35,963 bases of DNA from Desulfobacteraceae bacterium. Its GTDB lineage: Bacteria > Desulfobacterota > Desulfobacteria > Desulfobacterales > Desulfosalsimonadaceae. The notes under the pieces are model-generated. The model was not told the DNA's origin, did not search any database, and saw only the letters and a program-made list of their open reading frames with translations. Below are positions 5,293-26,722 of this stretch, one piece after another. Positions within the stretch are counted from its first letter, which is position 1, and every line of letters begins with the position of its first letter. Made by a program: the position numbers and the translations under genes. The stretch is from contig JAABSH010000038.1 of the NCBI GenBank assembly GCA_011390465.1, forward strand, positions 1 to 35,963, read 5' to 3'.

Positions 5293-6063
5293 TTATTTTG
5301 CCGCCATGCGCAGGGCCGCGTCCAGGCGGATCACTTCCGCGTTGATCATGGGGTTTTCAATGAGGTGGCGCACCAGCATGGCGAATTCTTCGGGCTTTCC
5401 CAGGCGTTTGGGAAAAGGCATCATGGCTGCCAGGGACTGCTGGGCTTTTTCCGGAAGGCCGGCCATCATCGGGGTCATGAAAATGCCCGGGGCAATGGTG
5501 TTGACCCGGATGCCGTAGTCCGCAAATTCCCGGGCCACCGGAAGGGCCATGCCCACAATACCGGCTTTGGACGCGCTGTACGCGGCCTGTCCCACCTGGC
5601 CCTCGAACGCGGCAACGGAGGCCACATTGATGACCGCGCCTTTTTCACCGTCTTCCGTGGGTGTGTTTTTGCACATTTCCACCGCTGCCAGGCTCAGCAC
5701 ATTCATGGTGCCCACCAGATTGATCTGGATAACCCGGTTGAAAAAATCCGCAGGCATGGGATTGCCTTTTTTATCGATGACTTTTTTGGGGGAGGCAACC
5801 CCGGCGCAATTCACGGCAAAATGAATGGCCCCAAAGGCTTCCATGGTCCGGTCAATGGCGGCTTTGACGCTGGCAGCATCGGTCACGTCGGTTTTGCAAA
5901 AAATCACCTTATCGCCCAATTCCGCGGCCAGTTTTTCCCCGTTTTCCGCGTCAAAATCCAGGATGGCGGCTTTTGCGCCGCTTTTCGTCATGTCTTTTAC
6001 CACAGCCGCGCCCAGACCGGATGCGCCGCCGGAAACCACTGCCACACAATTTTCAATTTTCAT
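5293..6063 (-). CDS. Type II 3-hydroxyacyl-CoA dehydrogenase (SDR, HSD17B10-like)
   Basis: NAD-dependent short-chain dehydrogenase of 256 aa that likely oxidises 3-hydroxyacyl-CoA. Seen: Rossmann motif GGASGLG (residues 12-18), NCAG (85-88), catalytic Ser149 in NVASVAAFEGQVGQAAY, Tyr162 and Lys166 in YSASK, and NTIAPGIF. The stretch around the catalytic residues is that of the HSD17B10/FadB2-like subgroup rather than of FabG. ATG is preceded by AAAGGAG, which lies just past the stop of the decayed acyl-CoA dehydrogenase copy upstream. The two were evidently an operon for consecutive beta-oxidation steps. A truncated second copy lies at 1-118. Confidence 0.92.
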   Translation of the reverse strand: MKIENCVAVVSGGASGLGAAVVKDMTKSGAKAAILDFDAENGEKLAAELGDKVIFCKTDVTDAASVKAAIDRTMEAFGAIHFAVNCAGVASPKKVIDKKGNPMPADFFNRVIQINLVGTMNVLSLAAVEMCKNTPTEDGEKGAVINVASVAAFEGQVGQAAYSASKAGIVGMALPVAREFADYGIRVNTIAPGIFMTPMMAGLPEKAQQSLAAMMPFPKRLGKPEEFAMLVRHLIENPMINAEVIRLDAALRMAAK

Positions 6064-15306: not shown

Positions 15307-15452
15307 GACGGCTTCGTAAAAAGTTCAAATTCTTTGTTGCGCTGCATCCCCAGCTGCTTCAACGTACGCCCAGTGCGCCTCATTGCCGGGGATTTGCGCG
15401 CCGCGAATTTGAACCTTTTTCTTTGCCGTCTGAATTCGGCTTTTTACGAAAC
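15307..15452. repeat. Imperfect palindromic interspersed repeat, copy 1
   Basis: GACGGCTTCGTAAAAAGTTC ... TTTGAACCTTTTTCTTTGCC GTC forms long imperfect arms around TTGTTGCGCTGCATCCC and GGGGATTTGCGCGCC, with a central ACGTACGCCCAGTGCGC region. An outer ggctttttacgaa pairs with the left end as well. A diverged copy is at 24877-25001 and a broken one near 35460. Confidence 0.8.
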
Positions 15453-19000: not shown

Positions 19001-19879
19001 TCAAGTGTTTTCCAGTTTACGGGTGATAAGCCCCATAAGATTATAAATGAACCGGGCCATGGTGAAGTCCGGCGCGTGAAGCGCGGCAATGGGGGCCAGT
19101 TCCACCACATCAAATCCAATAATCTGCCGGGTTTCAATAATTGATTCAAGGAGTTGAAAACTCTGGTACCAGGTGAGCCCACCGGGTTCCGGCGTACCCG
19201 TGGCTGGCATTATGGACGGGTCAAGGACGTCTACGTCAAAAGTGATGTAAACATTTTCCGGAAAATCCGCCGGGAGTATTTGCAGCGGGATTTCAGTCCC
19301 ATGAAGGGTTGCCGCATCCAGGTGCGGAATTTTTTTCTCCCCCCTGAGCTGGTACTCCTCGTAGGAAAGGCTGCGCACGCCGATCTGGAAAAAGGGAATT
19401 TTCAGATCCATGGCCCGGCGCATGACGCAGGCATGGCTGTCTGGCGTGCCCTCATAGGTGGCGCGCAAATCCGCGTGGGCGTCAAACTGGATGATGCCGA
19501 CATTTTTGATTTTTTCTTTTATTGCGCGAAACGCCCCCACGCTGACCGTGTGCTCCCCGCCCAGGAGCACGGGGATTTTTTCAAGGGTTAACGCTGAAGC
19601 TACGGCGGCTTTTATTCTTTCCAGCACCGCGTCCGGTTTTCCGTCGCAGTCAATGGCCGGGTGGGTATAAATGCCGTGTTCCGCCGGAATGCTTGCCCCG
19701 TCAAAGAGCTCCAGTTGCTGAGAGCTTTCCAGGATCGCCGCTGGTCCCCCGGCTGTGCCGGTGCCATAGGACACGCTTTTTTCATAGGGTGCCGGGATGA
19801 TGTGAAACAGGGCCTCCTGCGGGGTTGGCTGGGGAATTTCCGATGCCAGAAAATGGGGTGACACTTGTTTTTCGTTCAA
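19001..19879 (-). CDS. speB: Agmatinase (ureohydrolase)
   Basis: 292-aa Mn-dependent hydrolase that converts agmatine to putrescine and urea. Seen: GGEHT (107-111), FDAHADLR and FDVDVLDPS, which supply the binuclear Mn ligands, SYGTGTAGGP near the N-terminus and TGTPEPGGLT, the substrate loop. TTG start with GGAGG six bases upstream. It closes the polyamine cluster with nspC, carboxynorspermidine synthase and speA, all on this strand, so agmatine from SpeA is the clear substrate. N-carbamoylputrescine or arginase activity is less likely in this context. Confidence 0.9.
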   Translation of the reverse strand: MNEKQVSPHFLASEIPQPTPQEALFHIIPAPYEKSVSYGTGTAGGPAAILESSQQLELFDGASIPAEHGIYTHPAIDCDGKPDAVLERIKAAVASALTLEKIPVLLGGEHTVSVGAFRAIKEKIKNVGIIQFDAHADLRATYEGTPDSHACVMRRAMDLKIPFFQIGVRSLSYEEYQLRGEKKIPHLDAATLHGTEIPLQILPADFPENVYITFDVDVLDPSIMPATGTPEPGGLTWYQSFQLLESIIETRQIIGFDVVELAPIAALHAPDFTMARFIYNLMGLITRKLENT

Positions 19880-19953: not shown

Positions 19954-20098
19954 ACTTGCAACCCAATGTCATTAACTTAAGAGGTTTCAATGTAGGGGAG
20001 GGGTTTACCCCCTCCCGCGAAAAAGTCGACCCATGTCGGGAGGGGATAAACCCCTCCCCTACGCATATAGCCTAAGTTAATGACATTGACCTGCAACC
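19954..20098. mobile_element. 125-bp palindromic MITE, copy 1, with imperfect 10-bp target duplication
   Basis: The element spans 19964-20088: 16-bp perfect terminal inverted repeats (CAATGTCATTAACTTA / TAAGTTAATGACATTG), inner arms GTAGGGGAGGGGTTTACCCC and GGGGATAAACCCCTCCCCTA. It is flanked by ACTTGCAACC (19954-19963) and ACCTGCAACC (20089-20098), 9 of 10 identical. No ORF inside. A nearly identical copy is at 25099-25223. Confidence 0.85.
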
Positions 20099-20107
20099 TG
20101 AACCCCC

Positions 20108-21256
20108 CTACGACAGCCGGCCCTTAAAATCCGCGTAGCCAAATTCCCGGATAATGGAAAAGTTATCTGTTTCCGGTTTGTAAATGGCAATGGACGGGAG
20201 CTGGATGCCGTTGAATGTGTTGGTTTTGACCATGGAATAATGGGCCATATCACAGAATACCAGCTTGTCGCCGGGGGCAAGGGGCCGGTCAAAGGCATAA
20301 TCCCCGATAACATCCCCGGCCAGGCAGGACAGGCCGGCCAGGCGGTAGGTATGGGGTTTTTCGCCGGGTTGTCCCGCGCCGATAATTTCCGGCCGATAAG
20401 GCATTTCCAGGACATCCGGCATGTGGGTGGCCGCGGATGTGTCCAGAATCGCGATATCCATTTCATTGTGCACAATGTCCAGCACGGTCGCCACCAGATA
20501 TCCGGCGTTAAGTGCCACGGCCTCCCCGGGTTCCAGATAGACCTCTTTGTCGTATTTTGATTTAAAATCCGAAACCAGCCGGCACAAGCGGTCCACATCA
20601 TAATCCGGCCGGGTGATGTGGTGGCCCCCGCCGAAATTGATCCACTGCATTTGGGGGATCAATTCCTTAAACTGGTCTTCGAATGTTGCCAGGGTTCGTT
20701 CCAGGGCATCACTGTTTTTTTCGCACAGGGTATGAAAATGGAGCCCGGAAATCCCCGCAAGGGACCGGCCCGCGAATTGGTTTTTCAAAACCCCCAGCCG
20801 GGAGCACGGGGCGCAGGGGTCGTAAATGGGGATTTCGACTTCGGAATGGGCCGGATTCACCCGGATGCCGCAGGAAATCAGCCGGTTTGATTTCTGCACC
20901 ATGGGCCGGAAACGCTCCCACTGGGTGAAGGAATTAAACACAATATGATCGGATACGGCCAGAATCTGCCGCATGTCATTGTCGCTGTAGGCTGCGGCAA
21001 AGGTGTGCACTTCGCCCCCGAATTCTTCCCGGCCAAGGCGCGCCTCATGGGGAGAGCTGGCGCAGACCCCAAACAGGGTTTTGCGGATCAGGGGAAACAC
21101 CGAAAACATGGAAAATCCCTTGAGGGCCAGAAGGATCTTGCATCCGGTACGGTCCTGAACCGATGCCAAAATGGCTAAATTGCGTTTCAGCGCCGCCTCA
21201 TCCAGCACAAAACAGGGGGTGTCAAGATTCAGGTTTAAAAAATTAGTTGGTTTCAT
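20108..21256 (-). CDS. nspC: Carboxynorspermidine/carboxyspermidine decarboxylase
   Basis: 382-aa PLP enzyme of the alanine-racemase/ornithine-decarboxylase fold that decarboxylates carboxyspermidine (or carboxynorspermidine) to spermidine (norspermidine). Seen: PLP Lys46 in LLALKGFSMFSVFP, ISGLHFHTLCE, the Gly-rich phosphate loop WINFGGGHHITRPDYD, the ordered C-terminal active-site part GLSCLAGDVIGDY and YSMVKTNTFNG. No Shine-Dalgarno is visible before the ATG, and a CGCAGAG-type repeat begins 18 bp upstream. Next gene upstream is the matching synthase/dehydrogenase. Confidence 0.92.
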   Translation of the reverse strand: MKPTNFLNLNLDTPCFVLDEAALKRNLAILASVQDRTGCKILLALKGFSMFSVFPLIRKTLFGVCASSPHEARLGREEFGGEVHTFAAAYSDNDMRQILAVSDHIVFNSFTQWERFRPMVQKSNRLISCGIRVNPAHSEVEIPIYDPCAPCSRLGVLKNQFAGRSLAGISGLHFHTLCEKNSDALERTLATFEDQFKELIPQMQWINFGGGHHITRPDYDVDRLCRLVSDFKSKYDKEVYLEPGEAVALNAGYLVATVLDIVHNEMDIAILDTSAATHMPDVLEMPYRPEIIGAGQPGEKPHTYRLAGLSCLAGDVIGDYAFDRPLAPGDKLVFCDMAHYSMVKTNTFNGIQLPSIAIYKPETDNFSIIREFGYADFKGRLS

Positions 21257-21273
21257 TTATGATGCAACTAATC

Positions 21274-21332
21274 TCGCGCAGAGTCGCAGAGCTCGCAGAG
21301 AAAAAAATCTCAGCGCCTCAGCGCCTCCGCGG
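21274..21332. repeat. CGCAGAG-type inverted repeat
   Basis: CGCGCAGAGTCGCAGAGCTC GCAGAG, seven A, then TCTCAGCGCCTCAGCGCCTC CGCG. Tandem CGCAGAG units face their complements, making a hairpin. Similar repeats are widespread in Desulfobacterota genomes. It lies in the nspC/carboxynorspermidine synthase gap. Confidence 0.7.
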
Positions 21333-21416
21333 GATAAAAAATATTATGAACAGGAATTTCTTATTGGTTCATACAGCGACAAAAATGTCGTCAATCGCTT
21401 TTAGGGAAGTTATCTT

Positions 21417-22595
21417 TTACAGAAACACTTCTTTCCAGGGCAATCCGTGGATGTTGAGCTTTTCCATAAACGGTGCCGGGTCAAACTGTTCCATGTTAAA
21501 CACGCCTTTTCCCCGCCATTTGGCAGTCAGCATCATCATGGCGCCGATCATGGCCGGAACCCCGGTGGTGTAGGAAATGGCCTGGGACCGGACTTCCTCG
21601 TAGCATTTTTCATGGTCGCAGATATTGTAAATATAATACTGTCGGTCCTTGCCGTCTTTTTTGCCCTTAATTAGGCAGCCGATGCAGGTCCGGCCTTTGG
21701 TGAGCGGCCCCAGGGACGCCGGGTCAGGCAGCAGGGCTTTTAAGAATTTCAAAGGGATGATTTCTTTGCCCTCATACATCACCGGATCGATGCGTGTCAT
21801 GCCCACGTTTTCAAGCACTTCCAGGTGCTTGAGGTAATTGTCCGAAAAGGTCATCCAGAACCGGGCCTTTTTGACGCCGGGGATGTGCCGGACAATGGAT
21901 TCCAGTTCTTCATGGTACATGAGGTAGATTTTTTTTGGACCGATGCCTTCGGGAAAATCGAATTCCTTGGACACGGACAGGGGATCGGTTTCCTTCCATG
22001 CACCGCTGTCATAATATTTGCCTTTTGCCGTAACCTCCCGGATATTGATTTCCGGGTTGAAATTGGTGGCAAAAGGTTGGCCGTGGTCTCCGGCGTTGCA
22101 GTCAATGATGTCGATTTCTGAGATTTCGTCAAAGTGTTTTTTGCAGGCCCAGGCACAGAATACATTGGTGACCCCGGGATCGAACCCGCTGCCGAGAAGG
22201 GCCATGATGCCGCGGTCTTTAAACCGGTCGTGATAGTCCCACTGCCATTGGTAACAGAATTTCGCTTCGTCCGGGGGCTCGTAATTGGCAGTATCCAGAT
22301 AATCCACCCCGGTTTCCAGACAGGCGTCCATGATGTGCAGATCCTGATAGGGAAGGGCCACGTTGATGACGAGATCCGGCGTGAATTTTTGGATCAGGGC
22401 CACTAGCTCCGGCACGTTATCTGCGTCCACCCGGGCGGTTTGAATGGGCCGGTCGATCTGGGCCGCGATTTTTTCGCATTTTTCAACGGTCCGGCTGGCC
22501 AGGCAGATGTCCGTAAAAACCTCGGGCACCTGGGCGCATTTGTGGGTGACCACCTGACCCACGCCGCCGGCGCCGATGATGAGTACACGTGACAT
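21417..22595 (-). CDS. Carboxynorspermidine/carboxyspermidine synthase (saccharopine dehydrogenase-like)
   Basis: 392-aa NAD(P)H-dependent reductase that condenses putrescine or diaminopropane with aspartate semialdehyde to carboxy(nor)spermidine. Seen: Rossmann motif IIGAGGVGQVV (6-16), SRTVEKCEKIA, DLVINVALPYQDLHIMDACL, YLDTANYEPP, the saccharopine-dehydrogenase fold segment GSGFDPGVTNVFCAWA, and the C-terminal SYTTGVPAMIGAMMM. Pairing with nspC separates it from the lysine-pathway enzyme. AAAGGAGG precedes the ATG. Spermidine is the likely product because speA and speB supply putrescine. Confidence 0.92.
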   Translation of the reverse strand: MSRVLIIGAGGVGQVVTHKCAQVPEVFTDICLASRTVEKCEKIAAQIDRPIQTARVDADNVPELVALIQKFTPDLVINVALPYQDLHIMDACLETGVDYLDTANYEPPDEAKFCYQWQWDYHDRFKDRGIMALLGSGFDPGVTNVFCAWACKKHFDEISEIDIIDCNAGDHGQPFATNFNPEINIREVTAKGKYYDSGAWKETDPLSVSKEFDFPEGIGPKKIYLMYHEELESIVRHIPGVKKARFWMTFSDNYLKHLEVLENVGMTRIDPVMYEGKEIIPLKFLKALLPDPASLGPLTKGRTCIGCLIKGKKDGKDRQYYIYNICDHEKCYEEVRSQAISYTTGVPAMIGAMMMLTAKWRGKGVFNMEQFDPAPFMEKLNIHGLPWKEVFL

Positions 22596-22611
22596 TTATT
22601 TTCCTCCTTTG

Positions 22612-22718
22612 TAAGCGTTCACAGGGCACCGCATCTGCTTTGTTCCCGGGCACTTGAAGTACGACGAGTACGTCTTCGTGCCCGGCGCCTCGCATCTGCG
22701 GCACCCTGCAAACGCTTA
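22612..22718. repeat. 107-bp imperfect palindrome upstream of carboxynorspermidine synthase
   Basis: Nested arms: TAAGCGTT / AACGCTTA at the ends, CAGGGCACCGC / GCGGCACCCTG inside (imperfect), CCGGGCAC / GTGCCCGG, and a central GTACGACGAGTAC. It could fold as one long hairpin. No T-tract. Different sequence from the two other repeat families. Confidence 0.7.
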
Positions 22719-22811
22719 TAAATCAGTTATTTATGAAAAATTAAAAATTTTGACACCGTGAACGGTTACTCTCCTTTTACCTTAAACCTTCCACCTTCCA
22801 CCTTCAGCCTT

Positions 22812-24731
22812 TTATTCAAAATACGTATAACCGCGCAACCCGGACTGATAGGCCTTCATGATTTTCTGGCGTTCCTGGGGCGTGATCAGGCCACGGCGCA
22901 CGGCTTTTTCAGCGGTTTCCCGAAAATTCACCACAATGGCTTTGATGTCATACTCTACATAGGAGAGCACATCCGCCACGGAATCCCCTTCGATTTCCCG
23001 GACAAACTTGAAATCCCCGTCTTTTTTGATTTCAATGCTCACGATGTTGGTGTCTCCCAGCAGGTTGTGCAAATCCCCCAGGGTTTCCTGGTATGCCCCC
23101 ACCAGAAAGACACCGAGGTAATATTCTTCATCGTCTTTGAGCTCATGCAGGAGCAGGGAGTTTTTAACGTCATGGGTGTCGATGAATTTGTCGATTTTCC
23201 CGTCACAGTCACAGGTGATGTCCGCCAGAATGGCGTTCCGGGTGGGCGTTTCGTTTAGGCGGTGTACCGGCATGATGGGAAACAAATGATCAATGGCCCA
23301 GGCATCGGGCAGGGATTGGAATACACTGAAATTCCCGTAATAAATATCTGCCAGGGCATTTTCAATGCCATCCAGTTCCGGGGGAATTTTTTTCATTTTT
23401 TTCAGATCCGCACCGATGCGTTTTAAAATATGCCAGAAAATGTTTTCCCCCATGGCCCGTTCCCGCAGGGTAATGTTGCCGTGCTTGAACAGCTGGCGGA
23501 TTTCATCCCGGTAATACAGGGCATCGTTATAGCATTCCTGCATGTTCTTGAGGGTGAGTGTTTTCAAGACTTCCATGAGGTTGATGATCATTTCCGGGGT
23601 GTCTTCGGAAAACTGCTCCGGCAGGGGCAGGGTTTCAAAACTGCTCACATCAATGATATTGAAGAGCAGCACGGAATAATAGGCCACCATGGCCCGGCCG
23701 GATTCCGTGATGATGGTGGGGTGGGGGATGCCCCGGTCATCCAGGGTGCCCATGATCACTTCAATAATGTCCGCACAATACTCGTCCAGGGTATAGTTGC
23801 GGCTGGAGGTGAAATTGGTGTGGGACCCGTCATAATCCACGGCCAGGCCGCCGCCCAGATCCAGATATCCCATGGGCGCGCCCTCGTCTACCAGGCCCGC
23901 GTAAACCCGGCAGGCTTCCACCACCGCAAACCGGATGTCCCGGATATTGGGAATCTGGGAACCCAGGTGGTAATGCAAGAGCTGGAGGCAGTCGAGCATA
24001 TTGTTTTCTTTCAGAAAATCCACCGTTTCAATGACCTGGGTCATGTTGAGGCCGAAAATGCTGCGGTCGCCCCCGGATTCGGTCCAGTGGCCCCCGGCCC
24101 GGGAGGAAAGCTTGATCCGCAATCCGATCAGGGGATCTATCTCCAGCTTTTTGGCCCGTTTCAGGATCAGGGGCAGCTCGGATGGCATTTCAATGACAAA
24201 AAAACATTTAAAGCCCATTTTGCGGGCATAGAGGCCCAGGTCGATAAACTCCTCATCTTTATATCCATTGCAGATGAGGCAGGCTTCCGTGTCTTTGAGC
24301 AGGGAAATGGCGGCAATGAGTTCCGCTTTGCTTCCGGCTTCCAGCCCGTGATGGTAACGGGAGCCGAAATGGGTCACCTCTTCCACCACCTGGTGCTGCT
24401 GATTGACTTTGATGGGGTAGACCCCCCGGTAGTCGCCCTGATAGCCGAAGGTGCTGATGGCGCTTCTGAAGCTCTCATGCAGCAGGGAAATCTGGGACTG
24501 GAGAATGTCCCCCAGCCGCAGAAGGATGGGCATGCTGAAGCCCCTTTCCTTGATGCCGGAAATAATGTCCATCATGCTCACGGCATTGGCAGGGTCCCCG
24601 CCTTTGGGCCGGATCAGGATTTCGCCTTTTTCGGATATATCGAAATACCCGCCCCCCCAGTTGCGGATGGCGTATAAATCCACGGAATTTTCAATGGTCC
24701 ATCGTTCCAGGGAACTGACATTCTTTTTCAT
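22812..24731 (-). CDS. speA: Biosynthetic arginine decarboxylase
   Basis: PLP fold-type III decarboxylase, 639 aa from the ATG at 24731, producing agmatine from arginine. Seen: WTIENSVDLYAIRNWGGGYF at the N-terminus, the PLP Lys in YPIKVNQQ (residue 108 from this start), IGLRIKLSSRAGGHW, HYHLGSQIPN, YLDLGGGLAVDYDGS, ITESGRAMVAYYSVL and PVHRLNETP. The frame is open 25 codons further to a TTG (24806), but neither start has a clear ribosome site; the ATG directly precedes conserved sequence. It begins the polyamine cluster and the region upstream holds two repeat elements. Confidence 0.93.
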   Translation of the reverse strand: MKKNVSSLERWTIENSVDLYAIRNWGGGYFDISEKGEILIRPKGGDPANAVSMMDIISGIKERGFSMPILLRLGDILQSQISLLHESFRSAISTFGYQGDYRGVYPIKVNQQHQVVEEVTHFGSRYHHGLEAGSKAELIAAISLLKDTEACLICNGYKDEEFIDLGLYARKMGFKCFFVIEMPSELPLILKRAKKLEIDPLIGLRIKLSSRAGGHWTESGGDRSIFGLNMTQVIETVDFLKENNMLDCLQLLHYHLGSQIPNIRDIRFAVVEACRVYAGLVDEGAPMGYLDLGGGLAVDYDGSHTNFTSSRNYTLDEYCADIIEVIMGTLDDRGIPHPTIITESGRAMVAYYSVLLFNIIDVSSFETLPLPEQFSEDTPEMIINLMEVLKTLTLKNMQECYNDALYYRDEIRQLFKHGNITLRERAMGENIFWHILKRIGADLKKMKKIPPELDGIENALADIYYGNFSVFQSLPDAWAIDHLFPIMPVHRLNETPTRNAILADITCDCDGKIDKFIDTHDVKNSLLLHELKDDEEYYLGVFLVGAYQETLGDLHNLLGDTNIVSIEIKKDGDFKFVREIEGDSVADVLSYVEYDIKAIVVNFRETAEKAVRRGLITPQERQKIMKAYQSGLRGYTYFE

Positions 24732-24876
24732 GGGCAGAATCGCGTTTTTTAAGTTTTTTTGTAAATTCAAAAAAGCCGCCGCCAGCTGTTGCTGTTTTGT
24801 GTCCAACAGGTGCGGCAGACGGATAAAAAAATTTGTTCTTAGACGGATATATGAAAAATATCAACAGGTGAATGCC

Positions 24877-25001
24877 AACGGCTTCGCAAAAAGGCCAATT
24901 TCTTTGTTGCGCTGCATCCCTCGCTGCTTCAACGTACTTTCAGTACGAATCATTGCTCGGGATTTGCGCGCCTCGAACTTGTGCCTTTTTTCTTTGCCGT
25001 T
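24877..25001. repeat. Imperfect palindromic interspersed repeat, copy 2
   Basis: AACGGCTTCGCAAAAAGGCC to GTGCCTTTTTTCTTTGCCGT T, with inner TTGTTGCGCTGCATCCC / GGGATTTGCGCGCC and a central hairpin CGTACTTTCAGTACG. Clear relative of 15307-15430. It lies between speA and the MITE. The rest of the 584-bp gap (25002-25088, 25234-25390) shows no convincing gene; a 72-codon frame from 25282 has weak protein-like text only. Confidence 0.8.
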
Positions 25002-25088
25002 TAAGTTTTTTGGATTTAATAAATTACGAACAAATTTTTCATAACTCGTTATAGCTAAAATCCGGTGACATCAAAAGGAAAAATTAAA

Positions 25089-25233
25089 TCACCGCTATCA
25101 ATGTCGTTAACTTAAGAGGTTTCAATGTAGGGGAGGGGTTTACCCCCTCCCGCGAAAAAGGCGACCAATGCCGGGAGGGGATAAACCCCTCCCCTACGCA
25201 TATAGCCTAAGTTAATGACATTGTCACCGCTAT
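25089..25233. mobile_element. 125-bp palindromic MITE, copy 2, with perfect 10-bp target duplication
   Basis: Element 25099-25223, nearly identical to 19964-20088 (differences include ATGTCG at the left end and the central loop). It is flanked on both sides by TCACCGCTAT (25089-25098 and 25224-25233), a perfect 10-bp direct repeat. No internal gene; it must be moved in trans. Confidence 0.9.
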
Positions 25234-25390: not shown

Positions 25391-26722
25391 ATGATTTTTC
25401 AGAAATTATACGATCAACTGCCCCAGGCGGTTTTTTTCAGTGTCAAAGGGGCGAACCGCCTCCGCCAGACCGCCGTTGCCCTGGGCAGATCAGGAATTGA
25501 CTGGGTGATCGAAGGCCGTCCCGCGCCGCCGGTGCTCATGCGAAAGACGTTTGAGCGGCTGGGGGCCACCTATATCAAGATCGGCCAGCTGATTGCCAGC
25601 TCGCCGTCCCTGTTTCCCGAAGAATATGTCAAGGCGTTTCACCAGTGCCTGGACCAGACCGAGCCGGTGCCGTTTAATCAAATGCACAAAATTTTAAAGG
25701 CCGAACTGGGCCGGGATTATCTGGGCACGGTTTTTTCAGACATTGATCCCAATCCCATTGCGTCGGCCTCCATTGCCCAGGTATATGCCGCCACCCTTGG
25801 CACCGGCGAGAAAGTGGTGATTAAAATCCAGCGGCCCGGCGTTAAAACCATTCTGACCACGGATCTTAATTTTCTGTATTATTCTGCCGCTGTTCTGGAG
25901 CGGCTGGTGCCCCGGCTGCAGCATATTTCCCTTGCCGGCATTTTGTCTGAAATCCGGCGCACGGTGTTTGAAGAATGCGATTTTATTAAAGAGGCTGAAA
26001 ACATCGGTATTTTTGCTGAATTTTTGCAAAAATCCGGAAATACAAAGGTGGTGACCCCGAAAGTGTTTTCCCATGCGTCCACCCGCCGGGTGCTGACCAT
26101 GGAACGGCTCTATGGGATCCCGTTGACGGATCGGGAGCAGTTCCTGAAATCCACGGACCAGCCGCAGGTGGTATTGGGCGCGGCCTTTGAAACATGGCTG
26201 GCCAGCGTGGCCGGGTGCGAATTGTTTCACGCGGATCTGCACGCGGGCAATCTGATGATTCTGGGAGACGGGCGGGTGGGGTTCATTGATTTCGGCATTG
26301 TGGGCCGCATTTCTGAAAAAACCAAAAACGGGGTTATGGCCCTGATCCAGGCCATGATTGTAAAAGATTATATGACCATTGCCGAATCCATGCTGGTCAT
26401 CGGCATGACCCGGAAGAAAGTGGATACCGCCATGCTGGCAAAGGATCTGGAGGATTTTTACCATGCCAGTGAATCTTACGCCATTGAGGGATTGCAGGTC
26501 TATCCGCCAGCCCTGGAAGAACCCGAACAGATTCTTCTCGATATGGTCCGTATTGCCGAGGCCCACGGCATCCGGTTTCCCCGGGAGTTCACCCTGCTCT
26601 TAAAGCAGTTTCTCTATTTTGACAGTTACAGTGATATCCTGTTTGATATGGATATGATGCTGGATGACATGATGCTGGACGTGGATTTTTTTAACCGGCG
26701 GCTTCAATTTCCAGAGGAATAA
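25391..26722 (+). CDS. ABC1/UbiB-family atypical protein kinase
   Basis: 443 aa, related to UbiB/AarF/COQ8. Seen: the KxGQ motif in YIKIGQLIASSPSLFPEEY (about 57-75), the Ala-rich loop ASASIAQVYAA, VVIKIQRPGV, catalytic loop HADLHAGNLM and metal-binding DFGIVGR; a methionine/Asp-rich C-terminal helix (DMDMMLDDMMLDVDF). No strong TM helix at the C-terminus. Family members help quinone/isoprenoid lipid metabolism through ATPase activity. No ubi or men gene is adjacent. The start lacks a good ribosome site; an overlapping 72-codon frame from 25282 might act as a leader. The downstream gene follows after 30 bp. Confidence 0.88.
   Translation: MIFQKLYDQLPQAVFFSVKGANRLRQTAVALGRSGIDWVIEGRPAPPVLMRKTFERLGATYIKIGQLIASSPSLFPEEYVKAFHQCLDQTEPVPFNQMHKILKAELGRDYLGTVFSDIDPNPIASASIAQVYAATLGTGEKVVIKIQRPGVKTILTTDLNFLYYSAAVLERLVPRLQHISLAGILSEIRRTVFEECDFIKEAENIGIFAEFLQKSGNTKVVTPKVFSHASTRRVLTMERLYGIPLTDREQFLKSTDQPQVVLGAAFETWLASVAGCELFHADLHAGNLMILGDGRVGFIDFGIVGRISEKTKNGVMALIQAMIVKDYMTIAESMLVIGMTRKKVDTAMLAKDLEDFYHASESYAIEGLQVYPPALEEPEQILLDMVRIAEAHGIRFPREFTLLLKQFLYFDSYSDILFDMDMMLDDMMLDVDFFNRRLQFPEE

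Follow-up and report, generated by a model that had tools for sequence, protein, structure and literature searches.

Two copies of a 125-bp element in the window

The window (the whole stretch of DNA analysed, a 35,963-nucleotide contig of a Desulfobacteraceae bacterium, referred to below as the host) contains two copies of a 125-bp element, at 19964-20088 and 25099-25223. Copy 1 sits between an agmatinase gene (19001-19879, minus strand) and nspC (20108-21256, minus strand), and copy 2 lies upstream of speA (22812-24806, minus strand), in the divergent gap before an ABC1/UbiB-like gene (25391-26722, plus strand). The preliminary description had both copies flanking the polyamine cluster, which is not correct for copy 1 given its place between the agmatinase gene and nspC. 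Neither insertion position is special, and because the element occupies at least 41 places genome-wide, we give no weight to its association with polyamine genes. The features of the two copies are as follows (genomes, contigs, and loci carry handles beginning with G, C, and L).

19954-19963, no strand: copy 1 left target duplication ACTTGCAACC, matching 20089-20098 at 9/10
19964-19979, plus: copy 1 left terminal inverted repeat, IS4-type end; the element's first 18 bases equal the IS ends of G265
19992-20017, plus: copy 1 REP hairpin 1, GTAG tag outermost (copy alignment, arm search, REP test)
20037-20062, minus: copy 1 REP hairpin 2, inverted, letter-identical to the RAYT-locus REPs
20073-20088, minus: copy 1 right terminal inverted repeat (end-motif search)
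20089-20098, no strand: copy 1 right target duplication ACCTGCAACC (flank comparison)
25089-25098, no strand: copy 2 left target duplication TCACCGCTAT, 10/10
25099-25114, plus: copy 2 left terminal inverted repeat, one base different (end-motif search)
25127-25152, plus: copy 2 REP hairpin 1 (copy alignment, REP test)
25172-25197, minus: copy 2 REP hairpin 2, inverted (copy alignment, REP test)
25208-25223, minus: copy 2 right terminal inverted repeat (end-motif search)
25224-25233, no strand: copy 2 right target duplication TCACCGCTAT (flank comparison, 10/10)

The copies are identical at 121 of 125 positions (97%), differing at element positions 8, 63, 69, and 73. The 16-bp terminal inverted repeat CAATGTCATTAACTTA is exact at three of the four window ends, with the left end of copy 2 (CAATGTCGTTAACTTA) one base off. 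When CAATGTCRTTAACTTA was sought with up to three mismatches, four sites were found in the window against 0.42 expected, and none of 100 shuffles reached four. Copy 1 is bounded by ACTTGCAACC on the left and ACCTGCAACC on the right (9/10), and copy 2 by TCACCGCTAT on both sides (10/10). Our data thus bear out the preliminary description on the near identity of the copies, on the 16-bp ends with their single deviating base, and on both duplications. Copy 2, which alone was folded, forms a single long hairpin (z = -9.9). With its 125-bp length, lack of coding sequence, and 16-bp inverted ends, the element lies within the size range of MITEs (70 to 300 bp).

Other repeats are present in the window. 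One interspersed repeat, seemingly unrelated to the MITE, occurs at 15308-15420 and 24878-24990 (84% identical, with CGTACTTTCAGTACG in the second copy). The window, which is the whole contig, opens with 118 bases (1-118) that are repeated exactly 5.7 kb on, at 5725-5842, and further repeats (84 to 97%) lie near this 118-base repeat.

Copies and target duplications in the host genome

In the 3.93-Mb host genome (119 contigs), the MITE is present in about 40 copies, with 41 full or partial places in a forward-sense count, which sets a minimum; some copies are truncated, leaving partial pieces. Forty of 66 first-look candidates were scored. Flanking duplications were scored for 28 elements, one of them split across two places, and the 12 unscored places were cut by a contig end, truncated, or members of compound arrays. 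Element ends were fixed from the alignment or the end motif and not by maximizing the duplication. Fourteen of the 28 elements had 10/10 duplications, 20 had at least 9/10, and 24 had at least 8/10; these counts are kept as computed, including L024, whose start was out of register (9/10 by eye), and L020, a compound array with 8/10 at its outer edges. At 18 of the 28 insertion sites, the flanks correspond, with one mismatch tolerated, to short motifs that are common in intergenic DNA, such as CCTGCAAC, and because of this bias we permuted flanks among copies as a control. The mean flank match was 8.68/10, compared with a mean of 4.30 and a maximum of 6.04 for 10,000 right-flank permutations. 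Only length 10 gave perfect duplications, with zero perfect cases at lengths 6 to 9 and 11 to 13 among the 28 elements. Copies without duplications, or lying within a larger conserved repeat, were not seen as a rule.

Some host loci have more complicated structures. Two compound arrays, at C119:31512-31692 and C119:32881-33035 (L032), have one additional end-plus-REP unit arranged in tandem with the MITE copy, and the first still has an 8/10 duplication at its outer edges. In C36:1-452 (L072), at the end of a contig, an IS110-like reading frame that matches NF033542 only weakly (21.7 bits; cut-off, 140) is followed after 69 bases by a MITE-like end, CAATGTCATTAACTTAAG. Insertion of IS1111 into the REP-bearing QMITE2 has been described (PMC5896051).

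Among 60 genomes searched as relatives, host included, 13 had some match at E <= 0.001. Matches of element length were found in the genus mates G002, G003, G005, and G010 and in G018, from another genus; others matched only the REP part. A plasmid search yielded no MITE copies, and a search of viral contigs gave two stretches with an exact MITE end. A small-RNA reading of the element was considered and rejected, as it produced only two microRNA matches, far under gathering scores.

A full-length IS4-family partner in related genomes

A scan of 395 same-phylum genomes for the end CAATGNCRTTAACTTA found it in 27, host included, with places taken from among the matches listed per genome; 60 stretches were then fetched. 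G265 has four complete copies of a 1473-bp IS (99.86 to 100% identical), each with exact MITE ends and a 10/10 duplication, plus two more places with one IS end only, and G402 has a 1498-bp IS with the same ends and a 9/10 duplication. The transposases of G265 and G402 (477 and 467 amino acids, 53% identical to each other) match NF033592, the IS4 family, at 171.7 and 171.8 bits (cut-off, 115) and contain the Y-(2)-R-(3)-E-(6)-K (YREK) motif, as YHLRWPVEEDYKALK and YNHRWPVEENYKTIK.

The subgroup study of the IS4 family is reportedly the work of De Palmenaer et al. (2008). Subgroup IS4 is described there as having ends of the form -AATR--------WTW, a length of 1400 to 1650 bp, YREK, and duplications of 10 to 13 bp (PMC2266710). 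The G265 partner fits in its CAATGTCATTAACTTA ends, length, YREK, and 10/10 duplications, and the G402 partner fits in ends, length, and YREK, with a duplication match of 9/10. The host MITE shares these ends and is likewise flanked by 10-bp duplications but, unlike these elements, contains no transposase gene. G265 and G402 supply the autonomous partner with the same ends that is expected for a MITE. The ends, the duplications, and the full-length partner therefore identify the element as an IS4-type MITE, and, together with the copy number, they support the earlier proposal that it moved by transposition. Only 16 to 18 terminal bases are common to the MITE and the full IS, so the MITE is not a simple internal-deletion copy of the G265 or G402 IS.

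No full-length IS with MITE ends was found in the 119 contigs of the host genome, which is weak evidence of absence because several of these contigs end inside a MITE. The host has two DDE_Tnp_1 matches, a 549-amino-acid gene that is IS1634-like by its look and an IS4-family element with other ends inside one MITE copy. The latter lies on C24 and C85 (C24:81775-82277 and C85:14519-15043; L124, L125), with MITE positions 79-91 on both sides and the MITE duplication (9/10) joining the two contigs. Its transposase was rejected as that of the parent IS, since it sits within an existing MITE copy and has its own inverted end, ATAAGCGCTAAGTTATTATTA.

MIC231 and the IS231 cassettes are non-autonomous elements with IS4-family ends, as is the MITE. 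The AACTTAAG part of the MITE end was suggestive of such an affiliation, but this was rejected because the MITE ends start with CAAT, fitting subgroup IS4, whereas those of the IS231 subgroup start with CAT (PMC2266710). Four IS relatives on plasmids were also examined, with duplication used as one criterion for pairing their ends. A Pseudomonas IS annotated as ISPa1635 (1635 bp) has related ends and a 10/10 duplication, a Sulfurospirillum relative has ends with an 11/11 duplication, and a Desulfosarcina element has a protein 58% identical, nearly the same ends, and a flank match of 5/10; no convincing ends were found for the Saccharobesus relative.

The core of the element is a REP doublet

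The inner arms noted in the preliminary description are present, but they comprise more than GGGGAGGGGTTTA: the core consists of two whole hairpins, GTAGGGGAGGGGTTTA(C/T)CCCCTCCCG, inverted and facing each other head to head with GTAG outermost. This is the same arrangement as in the head-to-head REP dimer of Di Nocera et al. (PMC3733652). The earlier reading is thus incomplete, having overlooked a REP doublet core with its own presumed transposase, the REP-associated tyrosine transposase (RAYT). The host RAYT matches NF047646 at 106.9 bits (cut-off, 80), and its gene lies among four exact copies of one 26-base REP, to which the right hairpin of copy 1 is identical. When REP arms were sought in the host with at most one mismatch, 96 matches were found, 70 inside MITE copies and 26 outside, 8 of the 26 being exact. 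Among the 26 host loci put through the REP test, 24 yielded an element, all 24 with at least one tagged hairpin, and 20 passed the strict dimer test. Per-site divergence among 19 ungapped copies was 0.023 to 0.037 in the ends, 0.016 to 0.024 in the REPs, and 0.073 to 0.090 in the arms and spacer, a pattern that is suggestive only, because the copies are not independent.

The features by which GTAG REPs, REPINs, and RAYTs are recognized (PMC3116915, PMC3733652), namely, a tag beside a hairpin, an inverted dimer, and a RAYT flanked by the same REP, are all found in the host. The host differs from the systems described in those sources in that its REP arms are mostly (70 of 96) enclosed in a shell of IS4 type bordered by target duplications. 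The linkage of RAYT and core was seen only in the host; among 30 RAYT loci taken from other genomes, only 2 had core motifs. Inverted repeats that contain another GTAG hairpin, GTAGGGCAGGCCACC, surround a second host RAYT gene at C27:25071-25391 (L117).

Since the host has a RAYT and REPs identical to those of the element, the whole unit might be read as a RAYT-moved REPIN, its outer inverted repeats being extended REP flanks without a role. Two observations contradict this: the 10-bp duplications begin directly outside CAATGTC, and the same ends enclose a transposase gene in G265 and G402. RAYT/IS200-type insertion is not known to produce a target duplication, whereas the duplications here abut the shell ends, and we therefore regard this reading as highly improbable.

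The element could also be an ordinary MITE that arose from an IS4 element by internal deletion, its central palindrome being accidental and the REPs elsewhere being broken MITE pieces, which is how Wachter et al. interpret small copies of QMITE2. Truncated copies do leave partial pieces, the REP of G448 was not found outside its two MITEs at up to two mismatches, and the Coxiella REPs have been read as truncated MITEs (PMC5896051). However, so short a terminal match to the full IS is not what a deletion derivative would show, and the host REPs also stand alone, in tandem around the RAYT gene, and with variants of their own. The exchange of cores described below, with different cores in the same shell and CGTC-type cores in another shell, largely contradicts this explanation, which we consider unlikely.

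We conclude, with a probability of roughly 0.87, that the element is a non-autonomous, IS4-type MITE with a REPIN-like REP doublet as its body, likely moved in trans by an IS4 transposase. An IS4-family transposase acting in trans would most likely recognize the CAATGTCATTAACTTA(AG) ends, excise the 125-bp unit, and insert it through a 10-bp staggered cut, in a cut-and-paste manner. The cargo is a head-to-head pair of GTAG REP hairpins, which occur also singly in the genome and around the RAYT gene. Because these hairpins are found both in the shell and around the RAYT gene, the pair may be able to spread in two ways, through its own RAYT or through the DDE transposase that serves the shell. 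These roles of the IS4 enzyme and the RAYT, like the origin of the chimera, are inferred.

Different cores in the same shell and a second shell

The REP test was applied to loci at which elements of the same shell had been observed or could be expected. Elements were recovered for 17 groups representing 16 genomes, the host entering twice because of its second type; no element came from G327, and loci L014, L024, L139, L140, L197, and L233 were without an element in this test. The body contained one or more strictly tagged hairpins (GTAG or YGTC) in 12 of the 17 groups. By comparison, among 901 control segments of equal length taken from these loci, 5 had such a hairpin and 2 had an inverted hairpin pair. 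The 12 groups are not all independent, because G010, G005, G003, and G018 share the host core. A different core of a second GTAG type, GTAGGTTGGGTT, occurs in the second host type (C36:18296) and in G448, and CGTC-type cores occur in G286 (4/5 elements), G421, G199, G151, and G062 (1/3 elements).

Five of the 17 same-shell groups (G136, G190, G106, G064, and G101) had no strictly tagged REP. The 11 elements of G136 carry an imperfect palindrome resembling a REP, for which this genome gives 102 matches, and G190 has 38 CGTC-type hairpins elsewhere in its genome. In three G190 loci (L189, L192, and L195), the IS4-type shell encloses an AT-rich core without a tagged REP (e.g., CGAACAAGGAAT in L189 and L192). 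By eye, GTCATTTCGAGC REP pairs in G136 also lie between other inverted sequences of the CCCTTTTCGAGAAGG type (L275, L284, and L293); an automated search of L275 and L284 found no shell with a duplication, and a second shell for these REPs was not taken as proven.

When duplication lengths were compared among relatives, ends were chosen by end match alone. All five G286 elements had duplication matches of 8 to 10 of 10. Duplications of 9 bp were seen in G106 (two elements, 9/9 each), G151 (8/9), G199 (7/9), and G421 (9/9), and the shells with 9-bp duplications in these four genomes carry CAATGCC-type ends. Those in G106 (L236, L237), G151 (L238), and G199 (L232) lie at a palindrome-like site, GGTC[C/G]GACC. 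A 10-bp duplication was absent (0 to 4 of 10) at G010 L126, G005 L138, G003 L128, and G062 L212.

In G286, G421, and G327, CGTC-type REPs are also found in a second, unrelated shell whose ends are GTAACATCTCAATAA/GTATCTTCTCAATAA and whose duplications are 8 bp long; one G421 copy of this shell (L322) has a GTAG pair as its core. Loci were made for 30 of the shell's 44 places, and the 36 loci examined comprised 23 distinct elements, 4 repeats of the same place, and 9 without a pair. Flanks matched at 7/8 or better in 15 of the 23 elements and at 8/8 in 10, counts that are somewhat favorable because the pairing step used the duplication as a criterion. A strictly tagged hairpin was present in 11 of the 23, and another 10 had one palindrome with the same stem but no tag, looking like two fused REPs. 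Both shells are present with CGTC-type cores in G286 and G421. Because one shell holds varied cores and a single kind of core turns up in two shells, core and shell look modular, and this chimeric, apparently exchangeable architecture sets the element above an ordinary MITE.

The REP pair is nearly central in scored dimers, its distances to the two ends differing by 2 to 7 bases (28/26 in G000, 34/36 in G448, 38/45 in G286, and 46/39 in G421). This position, together with the occurrence of the same shell with other cores, favors secondary insertion of the REP pair into existing MITEs, where the single-stranded loop of an extruded hairpin would be the RAYT target. Against it, no empty MITE (same arms, without a REP) was seen among the host copies inspected, and CGTC REPs are described as having no known RAYT partner (PMC3733652). 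Secondary insertion, which we hold to be a possible but less probable course of events, is one of two sub-mechanisms of the explanation that we prefer, an IS4-type MITE with a REP doublet as its body, and not its opposite. Under that explanation, a REP pair may have been inserted in the middle of a MITE, its near-central position being in keeping with a hairpin loop exposed there, or it may have become enclosed by two IS ends; neither course is strongly favored.

Precedents and implications for REP spread

Palindromes that enclose REP dimers have been listed for A. variabilis and H. neapolitanus and, for GTAG-23, T. roseum (PMC3733652). As in the MITE, these REPs are regularly bounded by inverted repeats of other sequence, but the section that lists them describes palindromes and targets and does not mention transposon ends, duplications, or a partner IS. 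QMITE2 of Coxiella burnetii resembles the host element in being a MITE with 7- to 11-bp direct repeats that holds a GTAG REP, and it differs in that the account given of it has one REP family, names no partner IS, and reads the REPs as truncated MITEs (PMC5896051). In our search of the open-access literature, with subscription papers mostly outside it, no paper was found in which REP dimers are connected with IS ends, target duplications, and the transposase of a partner.

No transposase appears to be dedicated to CGTC REPs, for which use of a broad spectrum of transposases has been named as one possibility (Di Nocera et al. 2013, PMC3733652). The IS4 ends around REP hairpins suggest a means by which an unrelated enzyme could spread REPs, and pairs of CGTC and GTAG REPs in IS-type shells with exact duplications provide a concrete, testable vehicle for CGTC REP movement. 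They also offer a possible reading of the REP dimers inside the unexplained palindromes listed in that source. Caution is advisable where REPIN counts are taken as a sign of RAYT activity, since some of the copies counted may owe their spread to an unrelated IS. We tentatively suggest, at slightly less than even odds, that REP doublets are a general, exchangeable cargo of unrelated DDE MITE shells, which would spread both GTAG and CGTC REPs, with cores being swapped. If this is true, MITE shells would be the missing vehicle of CGTC REPs and a second route for GTAG REPs beside the RAYT.
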